Shown here: positions 2,703 to 42,772 of the stretch, one piece after another
How the letters are laid out: each line of letters starts with the position of its first letter
Position numbering within the stretch: position 1 is the first letter of the stretch
DNA from: Hydractinia symbiolongicarpus
Taxonomy: Eukaryota > Cnidaria > Hydrozoa > Anthoathecata > Hydractiniidae
Direction of reading: 5' to 3'
Length of the DNA stretch: 64,000 nt
Assembly (NCBI RefSeq): GCF_029227915.1
Contig: NC_079879.1
Coordinates: 16,680,001-16,744,000 of the forward strand
Program-made: the position numbers and the translations under genes
Notes under the pieces: generated by a model
The model's input: only the letters and a program-made list of their open reading frames with translations
The model's database searches: none
What the model was told of the DNA's origin: nothing

Positions 2703-2707
2703 TTATT

Positions 2708-4429: not shown

Positions 4430-4433
4430 GACG

Positions 4434-5273: not shown

Positions 5274-5307
5274 ATTCACGTCTAATTTGTTGATCAACAG
5301 ATTAGAC

Positions 5308-7367: not shown

Positions 7368-7369
7368 AA

Positions 7370-8018: not shown

Positions 8019-8692
8019 TTATTTACTCCACAAGAGCTCAAGATCTGCCTTTTCATCCTCCGAAAAACACCAGTCTATGACCCTATCAGGATGCCATGCA
8101 ACCGGAGCTAGCTCATCCCTAATTCTATACTTCTCCGCTTTTCGCTGATGATAGGCTTCGAGCAGATCATTGTTACCCATGCACATTTCCCGCGTCACGA
8201 ACCAGTCCGGAACATACTGCTGCAGCAGGGAATCTTTCCGAAGTGCTATGATACACATCTCTCGGGTCTTGAAATGTTCCTGAACATATTTGAAGGCCCA
8301 GGCATAACCACAAACCGCTCCATCACACATTTCCTGCGTTCTGAATTGGTCCGGAACATACCTCAGCATCCATCCCTGTTTTTCGACTGCTATATTACAC
8401 ATCTCCTGCGTCTTGAAATGTTTCGGAACAAACTCGATCATTCGGGGCGTTGCCTCAACCAACCCAGTCCACATTTCTTGGGTTCTGAAATGGTCTGGAA
8501 CATCCTTGAGTATATGTGGGTACAGCTCATCAGCCATGGTACACATTTCCGTGGTTTTGCATGATCCGGAACACCATTAAGCATCAAAGACGCTGCTTCA
8601 ATCAACCGAGTCCAAATTTCTTGGTTTATGAAATAATCGCGAGTTGCATTACCATGATGTCGGCTCATATTTATATTACATCCTAGCCTCAA
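8019..8692 (-). pseudogene. Protein of 24-residue VPDHFxTQEMC repeats, frameshifted
   Basis: At least five tandem 24-residue units are visible from 8546 to about 8160. Each has a VPD(H/Q)F(K/R)TQEMC core followed by a short amphipathic helix, and a charged C-terminal cap follows. One or two more degenerate units lie upstream in another frame (8692 to about 8560), so a frameshift splits the gene. Similar repeats, to my memory, occur in proteins of giant DNA viruses (DUF4116-like), where they may act as protein-binding solenoids. It is the last gene of the Maverick block, could be cargo, and is separated from its neighbour by about 190 bp. Confidence 0.45.
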
Positions 8693-9001
8693 ATAGCAAT
8701 CACAACTCTATGGACTTTCCCCTACTCACTTGCGCAATCTCTATTTTTGTTGATGTCAGCATTATTCCCGTTAGTCGTTGGATTTTATCGGAATCGGAAT
8801 TGGTTTTCGGATTTGTCGGAATTGGGATTTTGGATTTCGGGAATTTAGGGAATTTTCCTTGTTGTCCGTCGACTGTGCAGGAATTCCCATTTTCCTATCT
8901 CTAGCGTCCCATGCAACACCATCACCCTGAGCTTCCTCATTCTTGAATTCGATTGAAGCCTTTTTTATGTTAAAACACTCACTGGAAAAAAATGTCAACA
9001 T

Positions 9002-10322
9002 TTAATCCAAAATATTTTCTCTGACTACAGTTACTAATTGTTCCCCATTATTGAATTCACCCTCAAGGGATAATAAACGGAATTTTTGTAAATCTTCGAA
9101 ATTTACTGTTGTTATCAGTTCACTGTCTTCTTCCGAACTTGATAATAAACTTGTTGTTGAGGTAGATTGTTCAGTTACAGAATCATCGTTATTGGACTCT
9201 TTCTTTGTTCCAAATCCCATAAATGCTACTGAAGCTCCGGATCTCATGTTAACTGGATCATCGCGTTCTCTAATATGAAACATTCCTGATTGAATTGATG
9301 AATCTGGGACAATAACTTTTCAAGTAAAATCTAAAATATCATAATGTTCAGGTTCAATGCTCAAACTTCCTGCCCAATCATACACTACAGTCATTGTTTC
9401 TCGTGCATAAAAAACACATGTTTACGACCTTCTGCAGGGTGATGTATTGAAATAGTACAATGGTCATCAGTTTAAAGAGCTTCAGGAGGAACTATTGATT
9501 TTCGTGCTGCATTGAAGCTTTGTAACTTTAAGTTTCTTTTTTCTATATCAGCTTTTTCTTGTGCTTTCTTCCAATCAGATGCTAAAGATGCACAGTAGGC
9601 ATTGTCCATCTCTTGTCTTACCTCTGCTCGTTCATGAGAAGTTCTAATCAATGGTGTCGATGTTCTAAAACCACAAGCTGGAACAAAATCATCTAATTCG
9701 TCATTGTCAGAACTCACAAATATTGGTGCTGTCAAGTCTTGTATCATTTGGATTGTCTTGCACTTTGTTCTGAAAATGAACTTGGTTCTAGCCATTTTTG
9801 TTTTCTGACAATACAGCTCAATTGTAAAAGGTTTGCATTGGTGGTTAAAATGTTATTCACAACTTCCCTCCGGATATCAACTAAAAAAAAGTAACGTCAC
9901 TTGTACCAAATGTAAGAGGGTTGTCCCTTTTCTCCCAAAATAACTCTTTGCAAGTATTCAATAAATCATCATAGGATGCATTCGACGGAAGCTTGATGCT
10001 TCTCAGTCCACCTCCTCTGTCTCCTTTCACTAGAGCAATTTTTTTTCCTCACATCAATAGTGTTCCCAACTGAGGTAAACGACTCTTAGTTTCTTTGTTA
10101 CACTTTTCCTAACTGGGGACAACACTCTACTTTTTTTGGTCTAGCTGATCCACCTTGAATAATGGACTTTAACTCAAGCTTTCGATCTTCTATTTGCTCA
10201 TCTGAGGAACACATTAATCTGATTATATCACCATCCTTGGTGACACCATGTTTACGTAAAATGTTGTCGTCAGCATGCAGTACAACTATCTCAGTGAGCT
10301 TAAAAGGGAAACATGGATAAAG
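9002..10322 (-). pseudogene. Decayed gene with UBX-like segment
   Basis: Reading the minus strand downwards gives a chain of recognisable pieces in changing frames. The first is a segment with KHGVTKDGDIIRLMCSSDEQ (about 10,310-10,150). The second is a GGGLRSIKLP block leading to CKELFWEKRDNPLTFGTSDV (about 10,010-9,890). The third is a charged helix followed by VPPEAL and, after a frameshift, a short beta-grasp-like piece with VYDWAGSL (9,795-9,340). The last is an acidic serine-rich block with FHIRERDD (9,283-9,002). The VYDW..GSL and PPE motifs suggest a UBX-type ubiquitin-like fold, seen in an expanded family of cnidarian genes. At least four frame breaks show it is dead. The family call is by motif memory only. 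Confidence 0.5.
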
Positions 10323-10967: not shown

Positions 10968-13027
10968 GCTATTGGGCATATAAATATCAACTCAATAAGA
11001 AACAAATTTGAGATGCTTTCTGCGACTGTAGATGGTAATCTTGACATTTTGATGGTCTCAGAGTCTAAAATCGACAACTCTTTTCCCACAGCACAATTTT
11101 TTATCAATGGCTATACCAAACCATACAGGCTAGACCGAGACTTTCGGTGGCGGTATTCTGCTGTATGTACGGCAAGATATGAAAGATATACAAAATGATA
11201 ATATTTTTAATGATAAATCTATTGAGACCTCGTTATCGAAATTTGCTAATCATCCAAAAAAAATTAAAGATTTGGATAAAAATAAAACTACACAGCAGTC
11301 TGACATTCCAACAAAAATAATACAGGAAAATTCTGACATTTTTGGAAATGTTTTGTGCAATAGCATAAATTATAACATCGACCAATCCAATTTTCCAAAA
11401 AGCCTTAAGAACGCAGACGTCATTCCAGTTTTCAAAAAGGAGGACCGTACGGACAAGTGTAACTACCGCCCGGTCAGTATACTGCCTAATATCTCTAAGA
11501 TATTCGAAAAATGCTTATACGAACAAATTGAAGCTTTTTTTCAACCTATTTTTAACAAGCAGCAGTGTGGTTTTCAGGGAGGTTTTAGTACGCAGCAATG
11601 CCTTATAGCAATGATCGAAAAATGTAAAAAAGCCTAGATAATAAAGGATCTTACGCAGCGTTATTGACAGACTTGTCTAAAGCTTTTGACTGTATAAATC
11701 ACGATTTTGCTAAATTGCACGCTTATGGGTTTGACAAGGATGCTTTGAGATTAATACATAGCTATTTAACTGGCCGGAAACAAAGAGTTAAAATAAACAA
11801 CTCATTTAGTACGTTACTGGACATCTTATTTAGTGTGCCACAAGGGTCTATTTTAGGCCCACTACTCTTCAACGTTTTCCTGATAGATTTATTTCTGATA
11901 ACGATTGAAACTGATATAGCTAGCTACGCAGATGACAACACCCCATATACGTACGGGTCTGATAAAAATCAAGTTGTAGAAGACCTTGAAGAAGCAGCAA
12001 AAAGAATGTTTATATGGTTTGCTGAAAACGGTATGAAAGCCAATGAAGCAAAGAGCCATCTTCTTTCTAGCTTACCACTTGATACAAAAGCTGTCGTTGG
12101 AGACACGTACATTAAAAACAGTGACCAACAGAAACTGTTAGGGATAAAAATTGATCGGAAATTAAAATTTGATTTGCATGTAACGTTAGCGCGTGTTGCA
12201 CCTTACATGGATACTCAAAAAAGAAGAGTTATTATGAAGGCTTTTGTTACCTCTCAATTCAGTTACTGTCCTTTGATATGGATGTTCCACAATAGAACAC
12301 TGAATAACAGAATTAATAATTTGCATGTAAGAGCACTTCGAATAATCTATTGTGACCATACATCAACATTTAAGGAACTGTTACATAGAGATAAATCAAA
12401 AACGATACACGAAAAAAATCTTGAAACACTAGCTATAGAAATATATAAAGCTAAAAACAAACTCTCACCTGATATAATAAGTGATATTTTTCTGTTCCGT
12501 AGTAGCACTTATAATTTGAGAAATGAAAAAGAACTTTGCTATCGCACAGCAAAAACGTCTAGTTATGGCACTGAAACTATCTCAAATTTCGCGCCAAAAT
12601 TGTGGCAGATGATACCATCAAATATAAAAACATCTGAAACGTTACAAGAGTTTAAGTCAAAAATTAAGAAATGGAATCCAGAAAGTTGCCCTTGTAGGTT
12701 GTGCAAACCGTATATTAATGGATTAGGTTTTATTTGACAGGCAGACTTTTATTTAGTATTTATAGCATTTTGCGGTTTGTTTTTGTTGTTTTTTTTCCCG
12801 AATATTCTGGCATACCACTTCCTTGCAATATATAGGATCTCAAAAATAAAAGCTATAGTCTAACCATCCTTTATTTCAGGATGATGGTATGCAAAGCAAA
12901 GAAGTAAAATTAACTAAATTAATTGCCTTCTTCATTGACTTTAATTAGCGACTTTTCCCGAGAAGCTAGAATTTTTATTTTTTTTTTTACACGTCAATGT
13001 AAAAGAAATTGTTAATAATAATAATAA
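10968..13027 (+). mobile_element. Internally deleted CR1/jockey-like LINE with (TAA)n tail
   Basis: The insertion begins at about 10,968 with a 5'-truncated endonuclease domain (SIRNKF and LDILMVSESKIDNSFP). It runs through a reverse transcriptase and ends in a short (TAA)n tract at about 13,010-13,027. The 31-bp minisatellite is found on both sides, and the unit is interrupted so that TGTA may be a short target duplication. Between 11,160 and 11,200 the frame jumps from the endonuclease GGxL-type strand directly into the reverse-transcriptase N-terminus, so most of the endonuclease and the linker are deleted. Confidence 0.75.
11013..12737 (+). pseudogene. LINE endonuclease fragment plus reverse transcriptase
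   Basis: The first piece (11,013-11,170) is the start of an APE-type endonuclease domain. The second (11,179-11,637) holds the fingers of the reverse transcriptase, with VIPVFKKEDRTDKCNYRPVS and NKQQCGFQ motifs. After a frameshift near 11,635 the third block (11,664-12,737) carries SKAFDCINHDF, the palm VPQGSILGPLLF, the catalytic YADD in SYADDNTPYTYG, and the thumb with LGIKIDRKLKF. The C-terminus ends with a Cys-rich CPCRLCKP motif. A few residues are missing after NHDF compared with relatives. Family: CR1/jockey group non-LTR retrotransposon. It is not functional, given the frameshift and the missing endonuclease core. Confidence 0.85.
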
Positions 13028-13450
13028 TGTACAGATAGCATTCGCCAAGTGATCAATTTGTAAAGATAAGATTCACTAAGTGATCACTTTGCATATATAG
13101 AGCTCTCTAAGTGATCAATTTGTACAGATAGCATTTTGCTAAGTGATCAATTTGCATAGATAGCATTTGCATTTGCTAAGTGTGCAATTTGTACAGATAG
13201 CATTTTGCTAAGTGATCAATTTGCATAGATAGAATTCGCTAAGTGTGTAATTTGTACAGATAAGATTTGCTAAGTTGTCAATTCGTACAGATAGAATTCT
13301 CTAAGTGATCAATTTGCATAGATAGGATTTGCTAAGTGTGCAATTTGTACAGATGGCATTTGCTAAGTGTGCAATTTGTATAGATAGCATTTGCTAAGTG
13401 TGCAATTTGTATAGATAGCATTTTGCTAAGTGATCGATTTGTACAGATAG

Positions 13451-16797
<3,347 letters not shown>

Positions 16798-16817: not shown

Positions 16818-18536
16818 GTATATTCATTATGTGGACATTCTTTAAAGGTCTATAATTCCTTACTAAAGTACTTTTTTAGAAAAACCTCTAGTGTATGGAA
16901 CACAATACTCTGGCCCTCTGTTTCAACGGTGTTGCCGAGTCACGAAATTAATGCGTGTCCACCTAAAAATTTCCTTTTCCTAGGAGTAGTAATAAGTGGA
17001 CAAACTACTGCTAACAGATGCATTATGTGGACACAAAATTAAAAGGATTATTAAGCTTATTGTGGACACAACAGGAGCAAACAGAGACCTTTGATCGTAT
17101 AAGAAACAATATAAAGTACGGTATACACGGATAAAATGAAAGAATAATTTTCTGTCTTTTAGATATTTTAATTGATTTTATAAAAATACAAAGGGTATAG
17201 AGGATAGAACCTCTACATAGCAACTACCAACAGTCTGAAAACAAGTAGAACAAATAAATTTTATACACAGATATGTTTTGCAATGTCATTTTAATGGGCG
17301 ATATTTCCATTATTAACAGCGTTCGTGCTTGGAAGCTGCGTGCTAATACGACTTCAGTTGCCACATGATGACGGCAAAGTATAATCTTTCCAAGAAGTCC
17401 AATGGCAATTTGGATGAAGTGCGTGAAAATAAAAATAATAAACTGGTCTTAAAATACATTGTACGCTACTGGTAGGAGTCTTTGTGTGAACCTCGCTTAC
17501 AACGGAGGCACTGCAACATGGTTCTCAAATTAAGAAAAAGGGAATGGGGCTAAAAGTTCGCAATCTTATATTTAGGGAATTAGATCGACTTTTTTCACTC
17601 TATTCTCGACTCTTTCCAAGAAGTTGTTCCATGTCGCGCCAATTCAATCTCTTTATGTCTTATATCGTGAATTATCGATAAGTGGTCTGGGCGTTTAAAT
17701 TTTTGAACTCTTTCACTGGGTGCTCTTTTGTGGGCGGATAATTGATAATCTATAGTACGCATGTTGAACTGTAGAACTAGTCCTTTTTTATTCGGCCTCC
17801 TAATGCAGAACGAAAATGTTTAATATTTTTAAAAGAAGATATTTTGTTCCAACTTGTCTTCTTCAGCGTTGGTCACGTGGTTGCCAACAACGAATCAAGG
17901 GCATCTTAATGGCTTAATATAGCAAAACTAATGCTATTGTTGAATATATGAGAAAATTTACGCGAAAATAAGGCATAGATCTCCAAGAATCTTTTGTCGA
18001 CACGGTCCCCAGCCTGCTTTTTCTCTTCTTTCGTTTTTATAATTTCCACTTTATGATATCCATGAAAAGGCCGCGTTTGATTGTTTGCAAGAAAAAGAAA
18101 AAACATATGTAACTTAAACCTTTATTACTAAAATCTAAACCATCGTAAAACTTGTGTTGTATTTGGCTCATTGAAAATGACGAAGATATAAAAGATACGA
18201 GCCAATGCACAATACATAACAAGCCGTAAAAATAATGGATTTGTATCACGACTTTTAACAAAAATTTTTTTGTTTATAAATAACCAAGTTGCTAGGAGCT
18301 TGTATGTTATATGCAATCAATAAGGGCTGAGCGCCAAAAAAAGGCACTCAACTCTTAATTAAGCATAGTTTATTAAGAAACTATAAAATGCACTGCACGG
18401 TTTAAGCCTTAGTTTTGAGCAAGTAATCTCCACAAACGAAAGCAAACGAAAAAGCAACTTGAGGGACGTAACATAGGGCTACACCGAACTTTGAGTTCCT
18501 CATAAATACACTCATCTACTACCATAAGATTTTAAA
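16818..18536. other. Non-coding stretch with TTAnGTGGACA motifs
   Basis: No gene was recognised. The first 260 bases contain at least four copies of GTGGACA, in both orientations, mostly preceded by TTAn (about 16,829, 16,953, 16,996, 17,028), plus one variant near 17,070. The remainder is AT-rich DNA downstream of the large minus-strand gene. Confidence 0.5.
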
Positions 18537-21500
18537 TTACACAGGAATAGATAGTTTTTTCATATTAAGCTGCACCAATTTATCCCATTTCGCACGTTCG
18601 TTGTTAATTTTGTTTCTTACTTTCGTAAATGCAAAGTCTAATTTATGGTCAGCAAGAAATTGTTTCATCGCTGCACGACCTAAAACAAACAACGGTAAGA
18701 AAGAATTATTGCATTTACTCTGTAAATGCAGGGACAAATTAGGAAAAAGGAATCATGTGAACAGAATTGAGTAAGCATAAAAAGGGGACAAGAAGCAGTA
18801 CTCACTTGGCATTGGATCTTCTTCGGCTCGTTTAACAAATCCTCCAAAGCGCTTCATGAAATCATTTTCAGTGTCATCACTCCATGATAAAGTCCCATAA
18901 CCTAAAATTAGTAACATATAAGAAATGAAATAGAATATATGATGTGATACTCGCATTGCGAACCATTGTGAAATGCAATATAAACGCCCCACCTTTCTTG
19001 GGTAGTTTTTGTACACGTTTACGCTTATTCAACCATTCAACGGAATCTAAGAAAGAAATCAGTTTAATATTACTATTACAACGTTAACACAATACGACCT
19101 ACAAGTTCTGAAAACCCTAAAAAGGTGGCCTGGTATAGAGTACACGAAAACGAGTATGCTAATGTGTGTGAGTATAATAAGTTTCTCCTAGTTAGCTTCT
19201 ACGGGGAAGCAACAACGCGGCAATGCCCCCTTTTTAGTTTTTTTAACTAACTGTTTGATAGACTATGTGTTAACTATTTAGAGACGACTTCTAAGTAACA
19301 GGTCTTACCGACTGTTTGTTTTTCATCATCATAACTGTCTGACTCACAAAAATTCTTTACAGACTCACCTACGATAAATAATTAATTAAACAACAATGTA
19401 ACAAAAAAATGTAAGGAAAAACAAAATCCTATTTCTCAACAAAAGCCCTTGTATGTTCACTTGTGATGTTATAAAGAGACATTAAATGTCGTAAAGTAAT
19501 TTCGCTGTTTTAAAACTAATACAGACTAAAAAACTGTTTAACAAAGTAGTAAAATCTCCTCTTTCTGTTCGTATTTAATATTTACACAGTACTTGACTAG
19601 TTTAGCTCAATATAAATCCGTACATACCAGTTAGCCTGAGGCGTTTTTTGGAATTTGATGACGGATTAACAATACCTATAAAGGATAATCGGAAACAATT
19701 GCATACGCATTTCTGAATTAATTTTTGAGAATCAAGATTTGGAAACGAGAAAACACAGTTGTGCAAATGTGAAAAACATTTTTATAGAATATTGCAGACT
19801 TGTTCTGCTGACAGTATAGTGACTGGGCATTCAACTTGTACTCTACGTTTCTGGTTCAAGATCCCACCCTGATGCACTATAAATGTAGTGTTTTCAGCCC
19901 ACTTGGAGCTATCTACTGACAGCAAACTAGTTTGTGTGGCAGGCAATCATGTTAAGGCAATGCTATACGTATCTCTGGCGGTAATGTAACATAGTTACTG
20001 TCGGAGAGGACGAGCCAGCCGTTAGGAAAGAATCCTCAAGGATAATAAAACTTCCTGTTTCTTACTTACTTATCAATAGTGTAAACAACGAAAGAGAGGG
20101 CGTAGAACAGGCGTAAAACATTTTCACAATATTCTAAAACATCAACTTACTATTTGAGTCATTTTCTGTTTTTTTGCAATCATCATCTGTAGGTTTGAAG
20201 GTACTTTTCGAATCACGAGCATTTTGTTTTGTAGATCCTACAAATTAAATAATAATACTAAACCTATATGTGAAAAAAGAATAATATTTACATTCATATT
20301 GCAATGAGACTTTTAATTTCAGCGACCATAGTAATTCTATATCGAGGAAATTTTTCATTATTATAAGAACCTTATACCTCGTAATCCGTATTTACACTGT
20401 TTAGGTCTTTGTGTCAAATCATCGTGATATAAATATTCCAGCGTCAACATAATAGGAATTTTCAGCGGCACAAAAAAATGAAGATAAACACAATTCCTGA
20501 TACTTAAAAACCTAATATTCAAAATCTCTATTTACAACTGTATGCCAATAATTTGCTCTTTCTTTTATTTGAATCTTATATGTGTACTTAAACATATTTA
20601 AACAAACTGAATGAAAACCTAAATAAATAAAGCTACCTACTTAGCTAGGTTTAGGATGCTCTCTTAAAATCTACGTCTACAATTTTACGTTGCTAGAAAG
20701 TGTGATGATCCACTTATCTTAATATGTGAACACACAAAAAACGCCAAAATAAAAAACTGTGAGAAGTCAAAAAGGTTAAAAATTTAGAATATTATTATAT
20801 TATTAAAAGACTAGACGTTTATCTTTGGAAAAAGCCACAGGGTCGCCCGTCCTTTATATATCGCATTTCATATATCACATAGAGATTGAGGTGCTGGAAG
20901 TATATACCAAGTATATACCAAAAGTAAGACAAAATAATAGCATTTATATAGATTGACCTAACTTTCCACAAGGTTTAACTTGCGGGCCGAGAGTTTATAG
21001 CATTTTGAACAACTGACAGAAAATATCGAGCCTCCTCTTATTAGTATAGATAAACATTAAAATTTTAAAATAACCAAGCCATATGCTGCAAAACGGACCC
21101 TAAAAGTATATGATAAACTTATTACCTTGATCTATTTCCATAAGCGGTTTTCCTATCTTGGTTACTTCCATTAATGCCAATGGTGCCTGATATATCTGTT
21201 CATTTATTTGAGCAGAATGACCCATATGTTTGTAAAAGTATTCCCTGTCGTTTTTTGAAAGATCCAGGGCAGCGAATAATGTCGATACGCGATGCCGATT
21301 TGTCGTAGCCTTCATATTTTGTGGCTCTTTTAACGGCAAACGGTCACACACATTATGCATTGAATGCCAGCCGGAAACATGGTTTTCTGATAATCTGGTT
21401 GACGGGAAAACATAAGGATTGTCCCCTCTCACCCCAACAGCACATCTAACTTCTAAATCACACAAAATGTCGATGGCTACGGTTGTGTCTTCAGGTATAA

Positions 21501-24500
21501 GTAACGGCACTAAATGATTGTTTCCCTTGCCAGTTAAATATGTGACTTTTAACGAATCAACTATCATCCTGTCAAGTTCATCCATAGAATCTTTCCTCTG
21601 CTTATCAATCCACTTGTTGGATTTCGCATCGTTCCACTCCTCAATGGAAAGTCTAGCAGGCTCCCCACCTCTTCGTCCATTTAATACTGTAAGCCGCGTC
21701 CACTATCTCGGAGTCGAACAAACATGGATTCGTCAAAAAGCAAAAACTTGTCACTTGTTAGGGACTTTATAGTTGAAACGACTTCGTTTCTCACCAATGT
21801 CACATCACCCTCATTTGGTAGATTCTCTGGACGCCGCAAGTTTATTTGGCGCCTCTTATTTAGTTCGTACTGCGAGTCTCCAAAGATAAAATCTTCCCAT
21901 AGTTCAAGGACATCAGTGAATGACCCCACTTCCTTAGCTTCGTCATCCATAGACTTAGCCATATAAACAGCTTTCATTACCTTTGCTGATCTCTTTATCA
22001 AATACAGTAGATTTTGTTTCAAACCCGGCTTTAATTTCCCACCTTCGGTTGTCGAGTATAAATCAATGGCTTCTCTAAGACCATCAAAATTACATCTTAA
22101 AAACATGTCATTACCATTGTTGTAACGGGCAGTGAGTCCAGGTCTCTCCTTGAAATGCAAATAAAGGTGTCCCAATCGCCTCATCTCCAGCCTAACTGTT
22201 TTCTTTACTTGCGCAGCTTTGTCTGTTTTTCTCTTTGTTCGCCAATAAAATACAGATCCAACCTTCAATATTAGTTTATCTTTACAACATAATCTGCCCA
22301 CTTTATTGTCACGTAATTTAGCTAGTATGTTTGTTTTAAAATCCTCGTCAAGATCCTCACTCTCCGGGACGGAAAGTAATGACGTTGGTACACTAATAAT
22401 GCTGCGGCAATGATTTTTCTGACATCTTTTTAAATGTTTGCTAAAGCCTCTGGTTGCAATAAAGGCATTGCAGGAGCCACACGATTTTGTACTTTTCCAT
22501 TTCAATCCTTTTCTTTCTCGTTGATAGATAGGATTTTCAGACCGTGCCTGCTCTTTGTTGTAGCACAGGATTCCTTCCCTTCTAAATTTGTTGAATTCTC
22601 CAATCCTCTGTCGCTTTGATAAACTCATGGCGTGCTTTACCCTTGGCTCCAGTTCATGACAAAGCCTTATGTGCCTTGAGAGTTTAGTGTGAGTCTGCAT
22701 TCTCCTACAAAAAATGCAAATTCTTCCGGGTCTTTCGGACGCTTTCCCTTTCTTTCTCTGTGTTGCTTGATTTTTCTAAAAAAAAGGAACAGACGCCAAA
22801 TGCCTTAAGGTCACAACTCTTTTTAATGCACATAAATGAAAAATTATTAATCAAAAGAGTCTGCACACCAAAGTACTGTAACATTTTAGTGTTCTGTAAT
22901 CTTAGATGGTCATAAGAATTAATTCTAGTAAAAAATCATACCGTTAGGGGTTTCTTTTCACAAGAGTTCAAGGTAATTGTCTTAGCATTTAGATTAGCGA
23001 CATTGGATATGGAGGGTAGAAGGTCTTTATTTAATTCCTAAAATAGAAAATTTGCACACTATAGAAGAGCAGGGAAGGCATGTTAAAGAAGCAACATTAT
23101 AGACCAATTGGTATGAAATAACACATCTAGCACTTATATTAGTTAAAAAAGCCAGACTGAAGGAGGGTCAAACTCACATACCGACAGATTGATTATTCTA
23201 GAACGAGAAATTTTAAGCAAAGACCCAGCTAGATTGGTACCAGGCTTGCGAAATTTATAATATATAAATAAGTTTTATTAAAATATGTATTTTATCATGG
23301 ATTTGCTACTCTTAAATAGATACAATGTTGTGTACCTTGTTAATCTCTTCATTAGCACTGTCTTCATTTTCTGAGTCTGTGTTTAGAACAGACAGGTCAG
23401 CGTCAATCAAAAGAGCAGAGTCATTGGAAATTGACTTTTGACAATTCTGAAATGAAAGTAAGACTGTAAAAAACTCACAATTCATATCTTTCAAACCTCT
23501 TAAACATTTTCGATGCAATTGAACTTTTTTAAATTCAATAACATTCTCAAAATTCTCCAAGCAAATTCATCTAGAGTATCATCATTTAATTAAGGCCTAA
23601 AGACATTACCATGTTTTTTGATGGATCCGCAGTCATCTTGTGTTTATCATAGATATTTCTAATTATGTCTGATATAGGAATTCCAGGAGCCATCTAAAAA
23701 CATAACAATTAATGTTTTATTATCGTTATCGGATAAACTTACAAATTGCCCAAATGGGAAAAGAGAATACCTCGTTATTGGTGGAATCGTCAGAATCATC
23801 GAAATCAAGAGAATTTTTGACATAATTGCCACAATCCTCACTTCGCTGAGTAATTTTAAAATCTGCCATGTAACTCTAAAGTTAAACAAAGTCCATATTT
23901 TTGAGCCATGTGGACAAAAAAAGAGAATGAGACAGAGATTTGAAATTTACAAAAATAAAAAAAATAAAATTTACCTTCACATTTTGCATAACCGGAGAGA
24001 TTTTTTGAACAGATTCAAGAACTTCGCTCACCTTAATTAATGAAAGAACAAAAAATAATATCAATCTGCACCTTTAAAGGCATGTAAACATCAACACGAA
24101 AAGCTTACCAATTTTGTATCCCTTGGTGACGATTGATTACTCTGCAGTGGACTACATGGGACAATTCCTTCTTCAGCAGCCTTATTATTATTCTTTATCA
24201 CTTCAACATCCCCTGCCTCACTTCCCTATTTGAAGTTAGGCATAAAAGTAAAGACATCCTGCATAGTGCAAAGTAGCTTTAAAAACAACAACAAAACACT
24301 TACTGATTTCATACGCGGAATATGCAACAATTGTCTTTTTGTATCCTCTGTTAACTCACTTTCCTATATATATATTTATTTTATATATAAGAAATGTTAA
24401 CATCACCTTTGGGTATATTTATAACTTGCAACTTTTAACTGATAATGAAAAGTTACTTACCAGTGAATTTCTCATATCAGTAAATAGATTCAGACACTAC

Positions 24501-27500
24501 AAAAGAAATTTTATAAAAGAATAACAGTGTAGCTTTTGTGTAGTTGGACGTGTTGCAGAAAAAACAAGGTAATATTGTTGATCTTACTTGCATTGACTAT
24601 TGTTATATTGCTGGTGTTTAAAATTTAAAATGTTTAGCTTTGGGTTAAAATTTGGCTCCCAAAAAACTTAAAAACGCATCTCAATTGGTTATTTTAGGCA
24701 TTAATAATCTGTCAAATAAAATAATAAAATTTTATATTACCTCTAAAGCACTTGGTCTTTCCACAAATTCAGGACTCCAAGCTTTCGATATAAGATCCAG
24801 GACTAATTCACAATGCGGTAAATTGTACAATTTTGATACATGGCTAATATCTGGTCTTAAATCATCTTTTAGAGCTTGTAAAAGCAATTCATCGTTCAGC
24901 AAAGGTAAAACATCTTGCCACGGAGAATGAAGATCAGACATTATTTCATAGCACGAAATAGCCAAGGAATAAGTATCTGTTGCTTTTGATGGCTTTTTTG
25001 CAGCTCTGGAACACAATTCAGGTGCTGTATAGGCAAGGGTCATGCCTCTAAGATTATTAAAAGTGATGGTGCTTGTGATAGTTTGTTGCAAGATAACCAT
25101 TTCATCAAAGTCTGTAATTTTTATTTGAACATGTTTATTTTTGTTAGTCACTAGTAGATTGGTAGGTTTAAAATTCCGGTGCACTATGTTATTTTCATGC
25201 AAAAAAATCAGTCCCCTCGTAGCTTGCTGGATGTAATTTAATCTTTCATCAAGGACAAAATTGTCATTGCTATTATGTACTGATAATAACTGACGCAAAT
25301 TGTTTACTTTCTCACCTTCAAGACATACTTCACAAAATTCAAAAAGAAAAGCAGATGGTTGAACACTATAGCCCAGAAATTGTACAATATTCTCATGCTT
25401 CAATTTACGTAACTGTTCAGCTATACTGATTAAATTCTTCTTGGTTACTTTTTGTTTAAAACACTTGACAGCAGCACATCTTTTTTGTTGTAGCAATTTA
25501 TAAACAACGGCAGACATTCCTTCATCAATTTTGTGTGACAGGTTTATTGACATGTTCAAATCAAAAACTTCATACTTAGAGATATCAGGCAACTTCTAAA
25601 TTGAAGAGAGAAAATACATATGAAGTTCTACTCCCTTCATCCAAAAAAGACAGATTGATGTGGCAGCCATTTAGATATTATTATACAGAATTTTTTGCAT
25701 GATTAACTCAGAATTTGACTGTTGCACTATATTGCACACACTATTGTGTAAATGTTTTTAATTCGCTGAAGAAAAATGCTTAATGTGCAGAAACAGGAGG
25801 TGGTCAATTATTTTAAAATTATTTTAAAATTGAATTAATAATAGTATCCACGTAATTTATATCTATGTTTTTCCAATCTGCTTCTTTTTTGTATCTACTT
25901 GTATCTATCCTGCTGCTTTTTCTATTCCTGAGTTTTTCTTGATAGACAACATAGAATTCGAAAATATCATATCGAACATATAATCATTGCAGTTTTTTGA
26001 TTTTCATAGTAAAATGTGATTACAAGAACAATATTTTTGATGAAAATGATGAGGAGTTTGTTAAAAGTGAGTTGTCAAATTAAGTTATTTTAAACTTGAT
26101 ATTGATGAATTTAAATGAGGGTCAACTTTTCTTCACATAGAAAAGAAAAACAACTATCTTATAAGGGGTCGTCTACAAATTTCGTATGATATTTTATACG
26201 AATATATACGAATTTAATTGCTTTTAATTCGTATAAAAATCGTATACAATTCGTATAGCGTTAAATAGTTATACGATTTTTAAAAAATCTAATACGAATT
26301 TTATACGATTTTCATACGAATTGTCATACGAATTATATTCTCTTTTATACGATTTTCATACGAATTGTCATACGAATTATATTTCGTTTTTACACTTTTA
26401 AAATGCGATCTAACAAAAACACTTCTATCGCCATTTTTCGTTTTTCAACTTTTAACATGCGATCTAAAAAACATTTCTATCGCCGTTTTTCGTTTTAAAA
26501 CTTTTGAAAATGCGATCTAAAAAACACTACTATCGCCGTGTTTCGTTTTTAAACTTTTTAAAATGCGATCTAAAAAAACATTTCTATCGCCGTTTTTCGT
26601 TTTTCAACTTTTAACGTGCGATCTAAAAAAAAACATTTCTATCGCCGTTTTTCGTTTTAAAACTTTTGAAAATGCGATCTAAAAAAACATTTCTATCGCC
26701 GTTTTTCGTTTTTAAACTTTTAAAATGCGATCTAAAAAATATTTTATTTTGAAACTCATATACGAATTTAATACAATGTCAAACGATTTTCTTTTTTTTT
26801 AAACCATACGCATCTAATTAAAATCTCATACGAATTTTTTGTTAAACTCGTACGAATTTAACTCATACGAATTTAATTTAAAACTCATACGAATTTAATT
26901 TAAAACTCATACGAATTTAATTTAAAACTCATACGAATTTAATTTAAAACTCATACGAATTTTATACGAATTTAAAAAAATTTCATACGAATTTAATTAC
27001 TGTATGGCAAAAGAAAATTCGTATAGCATATACGAATTTTTTTTATACGAATTGCTACGAATTTTGTAGATGACCCCTAATAATAATTTATGTTCATGCA
27101 CTTACTTCATGAATTTCTGCATCTTTTAAATCAGCAACTGTATATGGCATTTTCGTCTTTTTATTCTAAAACATAGCCAAGTAATGTTGGGAACTTGACA
27201 CATAGGACAAGAATAAGAAATACAAGGTTTTTTATTATTTTTTAATATTATATATAATTATGGTAAGAACGTTAGAAAATGCAAAGTATAAAACCATGAT
27301 CTTTGTGTACACAATATTTTCAAAATAACTTGCAAATTCAAGCTAAAAAATATTCTTCTTATATATATAATATGGCATAAATTATTAAAGTAACATAACT
27401 TTGACACAATAAAAGGTGTTTATAAAATCAGTTGTATTATGTAACTTTATGTAACAACTTTCTTGTTGCAAAACCTAGAAATGCTAACATTCCACACTTT

Positions 27501-29583
27501 CTTCATAGTTTATGTTTCCCCACCTTTTTTAAGAACCTGCGCCTGAGCTTAGCTGAAACAACATTTCTTTTAGCTCCTTATTTAACATGGTTTTCAAACG
27601 TTTTATTTCACACATGCCATTGATTGGGAAATAAATGTTTAATGACTACTGAGAATGTTAGATTATACCCTATATACACCATCTATACAATGATAGGAAA
27701 CAACAGAAGCCCTAGCAGATCACGAAAAACTGAAAGAAATTCACAAAAAACAATATTGTACCTGCTGACGCCACCACAAGTTCGGAGCACAGTAGTCATA
27801 TCTGAGTTCAGTTCCAGATGGGATTTCTTGATTTGAATACAAACAAAGGTGTATTCGATCATTAAGATGGATTTTTTTAACCCTGCAGTTTCCTTTTGGA
27901 GAGTCATTCACATATCTACCAATTCTGTTTTGGGAATTTGTAGCATCGATACTAATGTGTAACCACAGAATAGTATTATTTCAAAATGGTTAATGGAGAG
28001 ATTATTAGAAATAATTTAGATATTAATTTTAAAGTTTGCCCCTGTACATCAATTTCAAATAAACAAAGTAAAATCTATGAAGTTTGTAGATCACCCTTTA
28101 CAATAAACATACAATATAAATGTAGCCTACTTACCAATATTTTTGGAAATTATCCTCAAAGAAGTACAGGAAACAACCCTCCTTTTCATAATTAGTTTCT
28201 CTAATTTCTCCTTCTTTTTTTGTTATTATTTCCCCTGCATACTCCACTAAAAATGTATTCTTGGGAATTCTTTCTTTAGTGAACACACCCTTTCCTAAAA
28301 AAAAATATATGAAATATGTGACATTTTTTGAGATTTGGGGTACTCATATTGAAGCTTAAAGGAGCAGTTCTATGCCGTAATTAATGTCATAAATTGTTTT
28401 ATATGTCATATTAAAAATTTTATACGGTGAAACAAAAATTTTCTACTCAGTATTTTTTTCAGGGCGTTTTTACCACCTTAAACGGTAGTAAAATCTCAAT
28501 CTAAAAATTGAATTTTAAACTCAATCTTATAAAATGAAAAATATTTGAAACAGAAAAATAAAACATTCAGATACGAAAAAGGTTGAATGATGGATAAAAA
28601 CAGAATAAAAACATCAACACGAGGTATATTACAGAAAAATATTGGTTGTTACTGAAAAAACTTATTTTTACTCCGAATGGTGGCTGCGAATTGCATGTGT
28701 GGCTGCCATAATCTATAATGCGAAGTCTGTGGAAGGGATGTTTTGGCATTTGTGAACATAAAATTTGAAAATTTTCCTCCAATGCTAACCGCAGGTTGTG
28801 CCTCCGGGAGACTCTAAACTCAATCTTGATGAAAACGGCAGTGGCTTTAAATCCTGGAAAAATCCCTGCTAATACGCAATAATTTCATTTTTCTACACTA
28901 CAAAAAAACATTTCAATTTAAAAAAGTGTTCTTATGGGTCTTAAACATCGCTATAATTTATTAAGAAAACTTCTTCTATACAAATCCCTTTTTATTAAAA
29001 TCTTACAACAAATCCCTTTTTATTAAAATCTTACAAAGTTTTTGCCATAAAATTATTTAAAAAAACCCACATATATATATAAACCACATATAATGGGATA
29101 TTTGTCATCATGTGACCAAACATGTCCAGGGCTATATTTTCAAAGAGTTTTTGGGGACGAGAATGAGACTTAGTGTCACTTATTATTTTTAATTTACACA
29201 CAAGTTATGCTTATTTTATTTTGGATAATGTTTCTACTTTGCTCTATTATTATTCATGCAAAAGGAAGTTTTTTTCATGTGGAACTATAGCAATTTCAAA
29301 AAACATTTTGTTGATGATGTTTTATGGATAAGTTTCAATGCAAAAAAAGACAAAAAATAATTATTTTCTTCCTTATACAAGATAAGATAAGCGTATAATA
29401 AAGAAAGCATGTGGTCGTTCTGTCAAGGTGGTTGTTTACACAGGTTTTCTTGTACTTACCAATATCTTCATTAATATAGGCCACAAATAACTCTGGTCTG
29501 TCTTGTTGGTTTAGTATCCAGGTTTTGGCGTCTTCAAAGTCTGAAGTCCTGTCCCTTCTTGATGATCTAGTACTTCTTAACAT
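18537..29583 (-). CDS. SET / kinase-like / zinc-finger / tyrosine-recombinase fusion protein (20 exons)
   Basis: Twenty exons (high to low): 29583-29460, 28294-28135, 27951-27762, 27165-27106, 25595-24741, 24496-24461, 24363-24304, 24225-24109, 24031-23975, 23875-23771, 23693-23610, 23446-23336, 23037-22942, 22775-21126, 20237-20151, 19675-19628, 19368-19309, 19046-18993, 18901-18806, 18679-18537. All introns are GT..AG and all phases agree. With one missing base restored in exon 14 the reading frame is about 1,397 residues. Order: SET (about 30-158), kinase-like domain (about 185-463), acidic/serine-rich linker (464-685), two CX2CX11HX3C fingers (about 704 and 784), tyrosine recombinase (about 1040-1225), and a tail with a SANT-like WSDDTENDF segment. 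It probably acts in the nucleus as the element's recombinase with added chromatin and signalling modules. The start is the first ATG after a splice-acceptor-like TTTTTTTTAG. Whether one transcript covers all exons is inferred from phase. Confidence 0.75.
21126..22775 (-). other. Zinc fingers and tyrosine recombinase of the fusion gene (exon 14)
   Basis: Two C2HC fingers (CIFCRRMQTHTKLSRHIRLC and CGSCNAFIATRGFSKHLKRC) precede a helical core-binding region. The catalytic half has the first Arg in NGRRGGEPARL, the NRHRVST box, the MGHS histidine box and the nucleophile Tyr in INEQIYQAP, in the order of tyrosine recombinases. The exon is 1,650 bp. The flanking phases (0 in, 1 out) require 3n+1, so exactly one base is missing. 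The frame change is seen between about 21,690 and 21,700. Confidence 0.8.
24741..25595 (-). other. Kinase-like domain of the fusion gene (exon 5)
   Basis: A single 855-bp exon encodes a whole protein-kinase fold. Visible are a degenerate glycine loop (EGMSAVVYK), the AVK lysine (CAAVKCF), a KHENIVQFLGY helix and strand, VHRNFKPTNLLV in place of the usual HRDxKxxN, a DFD in place of DFG, and YTAPEL. The C-lobe has TDTYSLAISCYEI and RPDI, as in TKL/RIPK-like kinases. The catalytic Asp of HRD is replaced by Asn, so phosphotransfer is doubtful. It may be a pseudokinase or adaptor. Confidence 0.85.
26164..27078. mobile_element. MITE-like element with terminal inverted repeats
   Basis: The ends are AGGGGTCGTCTACAAA on the left and its near reverse complement, TTTTGTAGATGACCCCT, on the right, 915 bp in total. 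The interior is made of two repeat types: about six copies of a 60-bp unit around AAATGCGATCTAAAAAA with CTATCGCCGTTTTTCG, and a run of CATACGAATTTAATT units. It lies in the intron before the kinase exon and has no coding capacity. Confidence 0.8.
27762..29583 (-). other. SET domain part of the fusion gene (exons 1-3)
   Basis: The protein reads a GKGVFT start, a VEYAGEII strand, a YCIDATN segment, then the post-strand GRYVNDSPKGNC knot and the ELRYDYC end. These are the classical SET landmarks in the right order and spacing, closest by eye to the KMT5A (SET8) type of histone H4 lysine methyltransferase. The usual NHS of the cofactor-binding knot reads NDS here. The catalytic Tyr of the YDY motif is present. 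The exon phases are 1, 2 and 0. Confidence 0.85.
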
Positions 29584-34095: not shown

Positions 34096-34906
34096 TAGAA
34101 ATTATCGACGTTGCAAAAAATGAAAGTGGCATAGTGAGAGATTTTGAGATTTTAGTGCGAGTGAAGTGAGTTACCAGAACAGCTGGGGTCCAGGGAAGCT
34201 AACGCATTTTTAATGTCGTCGCATACTATCAGAGCCCACGCTCCAAAAAAGATGCCACACTGAAGAAAAGTGTTTCAGAATGTCGCCGCAAACTACATAA
34301 GAAACACAAAGAGCCAATAGAATGTCTTTAGAATTTACATATTTTTACTGGAATACTGTCGCCCATAACTACAACGAAAATCTTTAAAAAAGATGTCACA
34401 CTGAAAGCTGCATAAGAAACAGAAACAGTCAATACATGACTTCCGTTTGTTCTGATTCTGCGAATTGGTTACACATGCGTAGAGTCTTGGTTGTCGATAC
34501 TTGGCGCCAGTGTCGAACTCTCACATAAAAAATTAGACAAAATGTCTAATGTGAGCGTTACACTTAATTTCAATATTACTCACTACATTTAAACCCTTGC
34601 TAAATACATACGATGTACTACGTATAAGTTAGAAACAAAATAAATCCATGGTCAAACAGTTATATTTTAGCCTGGATATATCCAGGCTAATCGTGATGAA
34701 ATTACCGTGAACTTTACTACTTCCTAACTTCTTATGGCACGTCATAAATGACCATGCACTGACTTTGTGTCATAGATGAGCACCTCAAAACCATGGTCAC
34801 ACAAACTTTACAATATATCTGTGACATAAAAGCAGATTTTGTAGAGTATGAACATCTGACGCAGTTGATGCACATTGCCTTACAGTGTAAAAAAATGGAA
34901 GCCACC
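34096..34906. other. Non-coding stretch with a perfect palindrome
   Basis: No gene was recognised. A perfect 24-bp palindrome (34,667-34,690) has arms TTAGCCTGGATA and TATCCAGGCTAA. The region leads into the 111-bp satellite. Confidence 0.5.
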
Positions 34907-35500
34907 TCTTATACAGCTACGAAAACGACCAGCGATCATGCACAGAATTATTTAAAGATTTGTGTCCACCTAATGTCGAGATATTTTGCACATATATATG
35001 TCCACATAAGGTAACAGTCGTATACAGCTACAAAGACGACAAGCGATCATGCACAGATTTATTTAAAGATTTGTGTCCACTTAATGTCGAGATATTTTGC
35101 ACATATATATGTCCACTTAAGGTAACAGTCGTATACAACAGCGGAAACGACAAGCAATCATGCACAGAATTATTTAAAGATTTGTGTCCACTTAATGCCG
35201 AGATATTTTGCACATATATATGTCCACATAAGGTAACAGTCGTATACAGCTACAAAGACGACAAGCGATCATGCACAGATTTATTTAAAGATTTGTGTCC
35301 ACTTAATGTCGAGATATTTTGCACATATATATGTCCACTTAAGGTAACAGTCGTATACAACAGCGGAAACGACAAGCAATCATGCACAGAATTATTCAAA
35401 GTTTTGTGTCCACTTAATGTGACAAATTTCTGCACATATATATGTGTCCACATAAGGTAACAGTCGTATATAACTGCAGAAACGACATGCCCTTAGGCCA
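34907..35500. repeat. 111-bp satellite, first locus (about five units)
   Basis: The GTAACAGTCG anchor recurs at 35,011, 35,122, 35,233 and 35,344, exactly 111 bp apart, then at about 35,457. Two subtypes (CTACAAAGACG and CAGCGGAAACG) alternate. Each unit has two TGTCCACnTAA motifs. Because 111 is a multiple of three, an open frame runs through the array on both strands. Confidence 0.92.
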
Positions 35501-38690: not shown

Positions 38691-38940
38691 CGAAAAAACC
38701 GTATACAACAGCGGAAACGACAAGCAATCATGCACAGAATTATTTAAAGATTTGTGTCCACTTAATGTCGAGATATTTTGCACATATATATGTCCACTTA
38801 AAGTAACAGTCGTATACAACAGCCGAAACGACAAGCAATCATGCACAGAATTATTTAAAGATTTGTGTCCACTTAATGTCGAGATATTTTGCACATATAT
38901 ATGTCCACTTAAGGTAACAGTCGTATACAACTACAGAAAC
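38691..38940. repeat. 111-bp satellite, second locus (about two units)
   Basis: Same sequence family as 34,907-35,500, here of the CAGCGGAAACG subtype. The anchors at 38,803 and 38,914 are 111 bp apart. TGTCCACTTAA occurs twice per unit. Confidence 0.92.
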
Positions 38941-39990
38941 AACATACCTTATTTTTTTGATCGAATCAATAATTAGTAGAGGTAAGAAAATTTATTAATT
39001 TATTACTTGGGGCGTCTCATGATTATTGTACTAGTATATCATAACATAATAGCGATTCACTGGATTATGGAATCCGGGTCCGGTGATCTTTAAAGTGATA
39101 GTAAAGTAATTCATGAATGACTCGTTCAAATTACTTTAATGTCGATCAGTCTCTTTATTTGCAGAATATGTGTCATTGCAATTTAGTTTTTTTTTACATT
39201 TTCATTTTACAGACCAGAAGCAAAACTCACGCCACGGTCTGCAAAATACACGGCAACCATCTAATGTAGTTAAAAATGTTCTTAACGGTAGATATTATAA
39301 TATATCTTTATTTGACAGAAATTCAAGTTAATAGTTGCTACAGTCCAAAACATATTCGTGGTGAAGTATGTTATTAGGGAGTTTCCAATCTGGTCAGTAA
39401 AATACACAAAAGCTATCAAAAAAATTACCACTATCTTATTTCATTTATTTTACCATATAAGTCCTAAATATATTAAATCTTTTCATTTAACACGAGAAAA
39501 ATCGAAATTACAAGTTGGCTCGAAGGTCGTTAAAAATTGACTGGTATATATATACAAAAAAGTCCTAGAATGTCCGTTATTCTATGGAAAACTGAGAAAC
39601 TGTAACCACTTTAGTATATGATGTACACTGACACGTGTACATGCAAACACCACCCAAGATATATTAGAATGTTAAAATGTATCATTGTTTTAATCACCTT
39701 ATACACCGTGGTGACAAAATGCTACTTTTTTCTATTTTCACAAAATATACACCAGTAAAAATTAAATGTCTATTCCACAGTGTTGCGCGATTAAAAAATA
39801 AACATATTCCTAACACTTTGTGACTTTGGTCCGTACAATACATAGCATAAAAGGTTATGAATTTTAGCCTGTAGAAGAGGAGGAAATATGGTTAAAAGTT
39901 TTAAGTGGACACCAAATTGTCCACCTAAGGAACATGTCCACGTAGTGATACATTTTTTCACTCGCTGTGTCTACCTAAGAAGCTCATAGA
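38941..39990. other. Non-coding stretch ending in TTAnGTGGACA motifs
   Basis: No gene was recognised. Between about 39,899 and 39,945 three motif copies (TTAAGTGGACA, TGTCCACCTAA and the variant TGTCCACGTAG) lie within 50 bp, directly inside the right inverted repeat. This mirrors the cluster at 16,829-17,075. Confidence 0.55.
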
Positions 39991-42772
39991 CATATATGTA
40001 AAAACTATTCTAACAAGATCCTAAAGTTGGTAGTAAAGTTTATAATTACTATATAAGCTTATTCCTACCTTTGGGCAAGCTGCACATTCCCTAAATCCAA
40101 AATAATTCGTAATGGCCACAACCTATGGAACATATGGAAACCTATGGACAGAAGTTTTTAAAGAGTTATAGTTTAACTAGCTAGCTAGCATCGAGCTATT
40201 CTATAGTTGCGCCCCGCCGAAGGGGCGCACATTTAGTTGACCGCGGGTATGTAGTGTTTGTTTTGTGTATGGAGATGTTTTTTTCTTACTCTCAACTCCG
40301 CGGGGGACTTCGGCTCGATCATCCAACCTCGGTTTGATATAACACGACCTGTGTGTTTGGTACCATCAAGACAAAAAAACACACTGATCGAGCAAAACCT
40401 ATCTTGTCCCGTTTTCTTTGTTGTCTCCCAAGATTTGACTGCCATAAAAAATGTTAAACGAGATTCTTTTGTTATGTTAATTTGAAGCTTTGTAATATTG
40501 TCTCGTTTAATGTGCTTAAATGTCGCTGCAGCTCACGTGAATTTATCTTCAAGAAAAGATTTGTTTTTGTTTGTCCACTTTGTTGCCAACCTTGTTAACA
40601 ATAAGTAAGTAGAAGGATTACTTATATCTTATATGAAATTAAACTCAGAACGGTTTATGGCGTTGATCCAAAGGCCGCAATTTATAAATGCATCACAATT
40701 TAAAGTCAATTAAGAACAGAACATTCCGTGTATGGCCATGACTAAAACTGCTTACATTTTGTTGGTCTTCCCTTCCCGATGGTCTGGCTTGTCGTAGTAG
40801 CTTTACTGATGTAGCTAGGGAGGTAAATACCTATTTTTAAATTCTTGCATTTTATTAGGTAATAGTCGTAAAACTACTCTTACTTGCACTACAGCTATCA
40901 AGCTAGAACTACACAAAATAGTGCTTTCATTAGAGTTCCTTTTTTTCAGAAGTCACCAGCAACAAAAAGCTTTTATCCTGCTTTGTGTAATCTTATCAAC
41001 GAGGGTGCTGATAAGCCACATACACCGTAAAATGTGCAGGCGTTTTGGGTGGGTAAAATAACTTCTAAAGGAACCTTTGTGAGGCTACTATCAGGTATAT
41101 AAAAAGATATTTGTATAAGCATGAAAAAATATTGTTGTTCATTGCACTGAACAGTCAAGTTGAACTGATAAATTAACCAATAACATAACATAGTTAGCCG
41201 TTGCAGTACAACTAGACGCTACCCACAGTATGTTACAGGTTTCTTTTTTTCTTCATTTTTTCATGTTTTCTTTTGAAGTTACAATATGATGTGTTGTTGA
41301 TTTATCAAATCTGACAAATTTATTAATTGAGTGTCTACCCTTTTTTGTATCAACTTGTTTAATTCAATTCGAAAACAATGACCAATCAATTTCCTCGATA
41401 ATAAATGATCAAATTTGTTCAATTCAATAAATCAATTTTGACAAAATAAGTCCTGTATTGTCCACAGGTTTAAAAATCTTGTATCGCCTGCTTAATATTA
41501 TACTTGTTTAACAATGATATCGAAACTTTTTTAATAAATTCTAACTTTAAATCAGATAAGTAGACAATAATTAAACAACCTAGTATTAATTCAGTTCCTG
41601 GTAAAATTGTGTTTTTTTTTTCTCAATTTTAAATGTACTTTCTTTTTCAGATCACCTGTTATCAAACCATGCACCATCAGCATTTTTGAAAAATCTTCAA
41701 CAAGAGAAATTTTGAAGGATTTTATTGGTAACTTAACTGAGTAATAATTCATTGAAATTGAACTTGTTCAGAAGTTATTATATATTCGAGTCGTGAAGTT
41801 CATACATAGCAATCCTGTATCCTGGAATTTTCAGAATTTTTCAGATCGAGATCAGTTATAAAAATATCTAGTTAAAGCTTTAACTATTGTTTCAGAATAT
41901 ACACCGTATATATTTTTCCCCTGGCCAATAAGCTTATTCACAAGCCTCTATGCAATTCCGTACTGCATTTCTGTTATCATATTCGTTATAACGCAGAACT
42001 ATAATTTTTGGCGGAAAATGTTTCAGCAAAAAAACTTTTGGACACAATTTGTTATTTCAGCACAAAAATTTTCGGAGATTTGTTAAGTCAAAAATGTATG
42101 CAAAAATCTTTTAAACGAATTTTAACCAAAATTCAAAAGCAATGATTACTAGAAATTACACAACAAGCAGGCTAGAGGCATTTAAAGTGTACATATATTT
42201 AATCAAGATCTAAGAAAGGGTCTTCAGGATCCCACTTTATAGATAGAGCCTTAACCAAATGTGAAAATAACGAAAATAATAAGTTCTAACACTGCAGTTT
42301 TTATTGATTTCAAACATCCACCATTTTCCATTTTAATTTTCAATCCCGTTCTAAATTTGAATATTTTAAGTCGTTATTTACGGTGGCCTCTATCTGCCAA
42401 CAATAAAAAACTTCAAATAAACCATACAGAGTTTTTGCAGCAAACATTTAAATCGATTGTCAACTCTGAAAAAAGATTACTTAGTCAACGCTATCTGTAC
42501 AAATTGATCACTTAGCGAATGCTATATATGCAAATTCCATACTTAACGAATGCCATCTGTACAAATTGCACACTTAGCAAATCCTATCTATGCAAATTGA
42601 TCACTTAGAGAATTCTATCTGTACGAATTGACAACTTAGCAAATGCTATCTATGCAAATTGATCACTTAGCAAAATGCTATCTGTACAAATTGATCACTT
42701 AGCAAAATGCTATCTGTACAAATTGCACACTTAGCAAATGCTATCTATGCAAATTGCACACTTAGCAAAATG
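39991..42772 (-). repeat. Long inverted repeat, right arm (2,782 bp)
   Basis: Mirror copy of 13,451-16,232. It ends at 42,772 inside a minisatellite unit, where the left copy continues as minisatellite but the right one changes abruptly into the KDZ palindrome. Confidence 0.92.
42479..42772. repeat. 31-bp minisatellite array, right end (about nine units)
   Basis: Same family as the left arrays, in the opposite orientation (CAAATTGATCACTTAG cores). The array is cut off by the start of the palindrome. Confidence 0.92.

Follow-up and report, generated by a model that had tools for sequence, protein, structure and literature searches.

A gene joining SET, kinase-like and tyrosine recombinase modules in a putative transposon of Hydractinia symbiolongicarpus

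Can a single gene of a mobile element bring together a SET domain, a protein kinase-like domain and a tyrosine recombinase? The question is raised by a minus-strand gene (LOC130645001; 29583-18537) in a stretch of 64,000 nucleotides (C5:16680001-16744000, hereafter the window) from the 481-Mb genome of the hydrozoan Hydractinia symbiolongicarpus. The explanation considered here as likely, though short of firm, is that a damaged member of an animal family of tyrosine-recombinase DNA transposons lies in the window as a single copy, about 23 kb in length, with a 20-exon gene for one protein. An initial annotation had noted the single gene; the evidence for the element and for the chimeric origin of its gene is new.

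An independent rebuild of the gene recovered the 20 exons of the initial annotation with coordinates exact to the base; each of the 19 introns is bounded by GT..AG, and the phases agree (introns 3-13 in phase 0; 14-19 in phase 1 when a frame break is counted), including at the passages from SET to kinase (exon 4/5) and from linker to fingers (exon 13/14). The summed exons amount to 4193 nt, with a remainder of 2 because exon 14 shifts the frame once at about 21684-21702, just upstream of the recombinase box LTVLNGRRGGEP, so that the length is a multiple of three given one missing base, as had been proposed. The NCBI model (P0001, 1049 aa) corresponds to exons 1-14 as far as the frame-break stop (685 + 364 residues), and in a search of 5.8 billion proteins it was 100% identical to the window protein with 75% of the query covered. 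A stretch at 28684-28866 that is open in the first frame was not accepted as an exon: the in-phase partner of exon 1 is the exon at 28294, likewise in P0001. The features of the gene, all exons being based on the rebuild with further support in brackets, are the following.

29460..29583, minus strand: exon 1, start codon and N-terminus of the SET part (identical in P0001)
28135..28294, minus strand: exon 2, SET
27762..27951, minus strand: exon 3, SET, with ..RYDY.. (Pfam)
27106..27165, minus strand: exon 4, SET-kinase connector (kept in the C14 family)
24741..25595, minus strand: exon 5, protein kinase domain, HRN for HRD, DFD (Pfam, residue check)
24461..24496, minus strand: exon 6, end of the kinase part and last exon aligning to the C14 family (alignment)
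24304..24363, minus strand: exon 7, linker
24109..24225, minus strand: exon 8, linker
23975..24031, minus strand: exon 9, linker
23771..23875, minus strand: exon 10, linker
23610..23693, minus strand: exon 11, linker
23336..23446, minus strand: exon 12, linker
22942..23037, minus strand: exon 13, linker
21126..22775, minus strand: exon 14, two zinc fingers and predicted tyrosine recombinase, one frame break (homologues, predicted fold of a relative)
21684..21702, minus strand: frame-break stretch of exon 14, upstream of the first conserved arginine box (the NCBI protein stops here)
20151..20237, minus strand: exon 15
19628..19675, minus strand: exon 16
19309..19368, minus strand: exon 17
18993..19046, minus strand: exon 18
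18806..18901, minus strand: exon 19, conserved C-terminal tail (homologues)
18537..18679, minus strand: exon 20, tail and stop codon (homologues)

Intron 4 also contains, at about 26170-27080, what may be a small non-autonomous transposon, an insert that has inverted ends and is rich in TTCGTAT/ATACGAA-like repeats.

The order of the modules in the window protein (SET, kinase, linker, two zinc fingers, recombinase, tail) is that described initially, and the profile searches suggested at that time gave clear Pfam matches for SET (PF00856, E 8.6e-17) and kinase (PF00069, E 6e-30) and none for a recombinase. Among solved structures, the SET domain is nearest to KMT5A chains (E 1.3e-21). It has the YDY motif, and the NHS position reads NDS in the window, P0002 and Hydra P0004 and NHS in P0031. 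The Hydractinia genome contains many more KMT5A-like SET matches, several of them in equal-score sets across contigs (positions compared by eye). The window kinase retains the Lys of VAIK and carries HRN for HRD, and thus lacks the full residue set of an active kinase; the Asp of HRD is retained in P0002 (HRD) and Hydra P0004 (HCD), and DFG is DFD in all three kinases. Judged by conserved columns, the second finger looks C2HC, as annotated, and the first C2H2. The tail encoded by exons 19-20, taken to be helical, has homologues in P0002, P0003, P0004, P0007 and P0008 by BLAST, and a tail profile built here matches 27 of 67 clusters of relatives; its earlier description as SANT-like received no support in the Pfam scan of the window protein.

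Tyrosine recombinases carry the canonical series R...K...R...H...Y with an HxxR box. In the present family R, K, R, H and Y are invariant or nearly so across 21 aligned proteins, and all five are encoded in the window. The predicted fold of a relative resembles that of tyrosine recombinases, and its DNA-enzyme half is thus predicted not to be a mariner DDE transposase. A PDB profile search with the recombinase alignment yielded weak matches only, to fingers and receptors. DUF3504 was absent for 38 members at E <= 1 among the 25 of 49 families listed, and for 6 proteins at E <= 10, the presence of the model under that name in the Pfam copy being unchecked.

Two protein searches, one of which scored the best 7996 candidates by shared words, gave 67 clusters of relatives, which were scanned with SET, kinase and recombinase profiles built here. 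All three modules were found in four clusters (P0001, P0002, P0003, P0004), that is, in two Hydractinia families, the second of them intact, and in Hydra. Six clusters combine SET with the recombinase (P0006 from sea urchin, P0013 from Hydra, P0015 from Anneissia, P0020 from Clytia, P0022, and P0031 from Hydractinia), the SET being only partial in P0015 and P0022; one (P0011) has a kinase without the recombinase; and in 56 neither SET nor kinase was detected, many of these 56 stemming from metagenome contigs and being perhaps incomplete. The order is kinase-SET-recombinase in Hydra P0003 and P0004 and SET-kinase-recombinase in Hydractinia. The initial annotation would have been contradicted by relatives that always encode the modules separately; this does not hold, because the models P0001-P0004 carry all three, and the search for the same architecture in other cnidarians led to Hydra, with the modules in another order. 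The fusion in a single gene is therefore supported, and the three-module architecture is real in two genera, at the level of gene models. A protein search with just the kinase region as query recovered, at E <= 1e-10, P0001 and nothing else from a pool of 1026 candidates (376-1197 aa); kinase-like loci without annotation exist in the Hydractinia genome. Among 40 stretches looked at in viral contigs, no relative was confirmed.

Neighbouring SET, kinase and recombinase genes with separate true products might have been chained into one model by splice signals that match. Such an account gains from the long introns between the modules and from a joining known through gene models, not cDNA, as well as from the 56 clusters of recombinase relatives without SET or kinase. 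In its favour, too, a further locus (C9:4928501-4943500, L029-L030) has a three-piece kinase 8.4 kb upstream of a same-strand recombinase with no SET found between them, and at a C7 locus kinase and recombinase matches are spaced in the same manner. Against it, NCBI models join the modules at two Hydractinia loci and also, in the other order, in Hydra, where only 70 residues separate kinase and SET in P0004; and the SET-kinase splice sites, their phases and exon 6 are kept between the window and the related locus on C14 at dS of about 0.23-0.32. Separate genes are thus quite unlikely, and a fused gene is preferred.

A distinct observation concerns L031 (C4:6126501-6131500), a 1231-aa open stretch with an N-terminal SET and, as judged by eye, a C-terminal tyrosine recombinase of another type; from its sequence, SET domains may have joined recombinases more than once.

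Comparison of the window gene with the three-module relative P0002 suggests how the fused gene arose. SET and kinase are 87% and 88% identical to those of P0002, and the recombinase is 48% identical, equal to its 48% identity to Hydra P0005. At the DNA level, the stretch from 30062 to 24429, introns included, can be aligned at 73-94% to the P0002 locus on C14, with more alignable pieces at 32.2-32.5 and 34.2-34.4 kb; below 24429 there is no alignment between the window and C14. Between 24403 and 21183 the window matches, at 80-89%, a decayed copy on C4, around which the upstream part of the window is unmatched within the 30 kb fetched. As the C14 alignment stops at 24429 and that of C4 starts at 24403, the joint is placed in intron 6.

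24403..24429, minus strand: chimera breakpoint in intron 6, upstream resembling the C14 family and downstream the C4 copy (DNA alignment)

The borders of six SET-kinase exons, including phases and exon 6, are kept between the window and C14. With dN/dS of about 0.19-0.24 and dS of about 0.23-0.32, SET and kinase are under purifying selection. The recombinase exons of C14 (L015/L016) and C9 (L029) have an intron at RRG/GEP that is absent from the window gene. Recombinase trees put P0002 together with Hydra P0017 (100/96; 99/98) and separate it from the window; a constraint that unites the window and P0002 recombinases is penalised by 13.3 log units and marginally rejected (p-AU 0.048).

Window and C14 genes could also be simple duplicates whose recombinase halves diverged much faster, without exchange of modules. 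The rejection of a joint recombinase grouping is, after all, only marginal, and a broken recombinase such as that of the window may evolve fast. This is nevertheless improbable in the face of the disparity between 87-88% and 48% identity, the firm pairing of the P0002 recombinase with Hydra P0017, the introns that align up to 24429 only and then give way to the C4 copy, and the RRG/GEP intron found on one side alone. Most likely, the window gene arose by fusion, in intron 6, of a SET-kinase half from one element lineage with a linker-recombinase half from a second lineage. Such an exchange of SET-kinase parts between recombinase backbones would clearly exemplify exon shuffling within mobile elements.

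An 11-bp motif, TGTCCACNTAA, bears on the limits of the element. With up to one mismatch, 28 matches lie in the window, where 4.66 are expected (maximum 11 in 100 shuffles), and 14 of the 28 fall in 111-bp tandem arrays. Once the arrays were masked, 14 motifs were left, with clusters of four within 250 bp at two places and nowhere else; none of 200 simulations gave more than two. The element ends were put at these places, 16.8 and 39.99 kb, because the clusters sit just inside (TA)n and ACATATATGT; at each end three of the four motifs point outward. We take the element to extend over this interval of about 23 kb, which contains the gene.

16827..17033, minus strand: right end, four TGTCCACNTAA-like motifs (16827-17023; up to one mismatch; 3 of 4 on the minus strand) by (TA)n (motif scan)
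16227..16790, no strand: (TA)n run adjoining the right end
39901..39987, plus strand: left end, four motifs (39901-39968; three of them on the plus strand) followed by ACATATATGT at about 39987 (motif scan)
34910..35470, plus strand: 111-bp tandem array, two TGTCCACNTAA per unit
38700..38931, plus strand: second 111-bp tandem array, motifs as in the first
34241..34405, minus strand: stretch 81% alignable to the 143-bp tandem array of the C14 family

Related families show a comparable layout with motifs of their own. In the P0031 family TGTCCACTTTA/G occurs in an array of about 113 bp (making up 27 and 25 of 60 TGTCCAC sites in a C8 stretch) and the end carries TGTCCACCTAAGG. In the C14 family TGTCGCCC/GTAAACT is found near the right end as well as in the 143-bp array, where the C17 copy has 17 exact sites. 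TGTCGCCNTAA is not clearly enriched in the window (6 against 2.71 expected). A tally of 16 variants of TGTCxyCNTAA in six sequences found no match at the C9 locus and a single one in the C4 copy; E8 had only one CA match, because the E8 array reads TGTCCACTTT. Going by these sequences, the 11-bp motif may be a site for the recombinase or the fingers. On both sides of the element lies a 2.79-kb inverted repeat (13450-16237 and 39986-42773; 99.9% identical), which was rejected as its terminal repeats, being a high-copy repeat with at least 156 genome matches. No long terminal repeats were seen within 15-33 kb.

Copies elsewhere in the genome bear on the mobility of the family. The P0012 recombinase as query gave at least 84 matches, including nine equal-score loci with an open 568-aa frame on seven contigs (C4, C6 with three, C8, C9, C12, C15, C19) and a second set of ten recombinase loci at 414.6-419.8 bits. 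Three of the nine P0031-type loci (C15, C8 and C12) were compared. The C8 and C12 copies match P0031 from residue 12 to the end and are 99.98% identical to each other over 16 kb; the C15 copy matches from residue 232 and shares 99.96% identity with C8 along 9.4 kb. C8 and C15 run into (TA)n at their right ends, with different flanks beyond. Near-identical dispersed copies are thus found for the SET-recombinase type P0031 and not for the window copy. The P0002 family has five copies (three on C14, one each on C17 and C18) and an equal-score recombinase match on C60, and two of its copies diverge at a (TA)n right end.

Several observations weigh against the view that the window holds a tyrosine-recombinase transposon with a single fused gene. 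The one 20-exon transcript is inferred from gene models. No Pfam recombinase match was obtained for the window protein, 38 members or 6 proteins scanned, Foldseek gave no match at E <= 0.001 for the predicted fold of the relative (best 0.035, XerH), and the histidine of the HxxR box is not at the expected place in the aligned columns. The window recombinase is placed at 98/76 in one tree and finds no stable position in the other. The motif was picked after inspection of the sequence, its array copies are not independent, and both element ends are seen in the window copy only. Elsewhere in the genome the right end of this copy is matched by only four partial stretches of 48-75 bp, and for this reason the window element itself has not been seen to move. 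Among the dispersed copies, C12 was followed short of its right end; the 18 kb fetched for C15 contain no SET exons, other DNA adjoining the copy at that point; and the C14 copies, near-identical along more than 28 kb and close to N runs, may be duplicated segments or assembly copies.

Owing to the frame break upstream of the recombinase boxes, the window copy is unable to make the whole protein. This break, together with the HRN kinase and the right end without a second genomic copy, indicates that the element is probably inactive, and intact relatives exist. The same features bear on whether the gene has been domesticated from a transposon, in the manner of SETMAR, for a cellular role without mobility. 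A dN/dS of about 0.2 on SET and kinase, the many introns and the lone right end would suit a host gene; the frame break and lost kinase Asp of the window copy, the dispersed, near-identical relatives with open frames, and the opposed end motifs at 16.8 and 39.9 kb would not. Domestication is considered unlikely, and a damaged transposon remains the preferred explanation.

The element might instead be a tyrosine-recombinase retrotransposon of the DIRS or Ngaro kind. DIRS-type elements use tyrosine recombinases and are reported to have captured methyltransferases in dinoflagellates (PMC5890265); moreover, the P0031 unit contains a 109-aa FADD frame, and one C14 copy a 660-aa frame resembling reverse transcriptase. 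By eye, both frames look like LINE pieces, inspection of open frames of at least 60 aa in the window element found no [YF]xDD, and the window gene is rich in introns, all of which makes a retrotransposon very improbable and favours a DNA-only element.

Among known systems, the Cryptons of animals are tyrosine-recombinase DNA elements present in cnidarians (PMC3212892). As DNA elements with a tyrosine recombinase gene, CryptonA and CryptonI resemble the present one. In that source, animal Cryptons are described as having no C-terminal domain and no terminal repeats, and CryptonA recombinases as matching DUF3504; the window element differs in its C-terminal tail, motif clusters, arrays, SET, kinase and many introns, and DUF3504 is not among the Pfam families listed for its relatives. 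SETMAR likewise fuses a SET methyltransferase to the DNA enzyme of a transposon in primates (PMC12062965), but it is a host gene with a mariner (DDE) transposase, whereas the present gene has another kind of DNA enzyme, a KMT5A-like SET and an added kinase, and its relatives are multi-copy. In eukaryotes, transposon-borne DNA methyltransferases and TET/JBP dioxygenases are similarly chromatin or DNA modifiers taken up by transposons (PMC5890265, PMC12730594); they are other enzymes, and the available passages note no kinase and no multi-exon recombinase fusion. Fungal Starships are also described as large elements classed by their tyrosine recombinase and carrying other genes, but reach far larger sizes and bear accessory genes as cargo instead of recombinase fusions. 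Since crustacean elements insert in (AT/TA)n through a DDE transposase, as reported in PMC10871703, targeting of (TA)n as such is already known. In keeping with the initial annotation, no description of SET, kinase and tyrosine recombinase together was found in the open-licence literature; an unnamed earlier entry may exist, because most subscription papers and Repbase lay outside this scope.

Outside the element, a palindrome of about 12 kb (42771-54729; 99.8% identical to its own reverse complement) starts at the end of the right inverted repeat and may be either real or an assembly fold-back. Frames at 252-9852 look by eye like a Bro/KilA-like protein, an integrase and capsid-like proteins, the kind of set that Polinton-type elements carry, and those at 11134-12737 like LINE reverse transcriptase.

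How an intact member would work can be proposed from these parts, site recognition, target choice and all SET and kinase biochemistry being what we infer. The zinc fingers and/or the core-binding domain of the recombinase would bind a family-specific 11-bp site (TGTCCACNTAA here) in the end clusters and arrays, and the recombinase would cut and rejoin DNA at or beside (TA)n. SET, brought to the motif sites, would methylate proteins in the vicinity of the donor or target, whether histones or others, while the kinase would phosphorylate chromatin or silencing proteins; through both activities the element could counter host silencing or gain access to DNA.

The arrangements found are SET-kinase-recombinase, kinase-SET-recombinase, SET-recombinase and recombinase alone. 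Tentatively, and with somewhat less than an even chance of being right, these may represent an unnamed class of animal tyrosine-recombinase transposons with KMT5A-like SET and kinase cassettes shuffled through introns from one recombinase lineage to another, co-evolving 11-bp sites in end clusters and internal arrays, and effectors that would modify chromatin and signalling there and so evade silencing. Domain-based screens for transposon-host fusions would probably miss such proteins, because Pfam gave no recombinase match. If the intact relatives work as proposed, they would be self-mobilising elements that supply a histone methyltransferase and a kinase of their own as fusions with the recombinase, and, if this is true, the contest between transposons and host silencing would become testable in the laboratory hydrozoans Hydra and Hydractinia.

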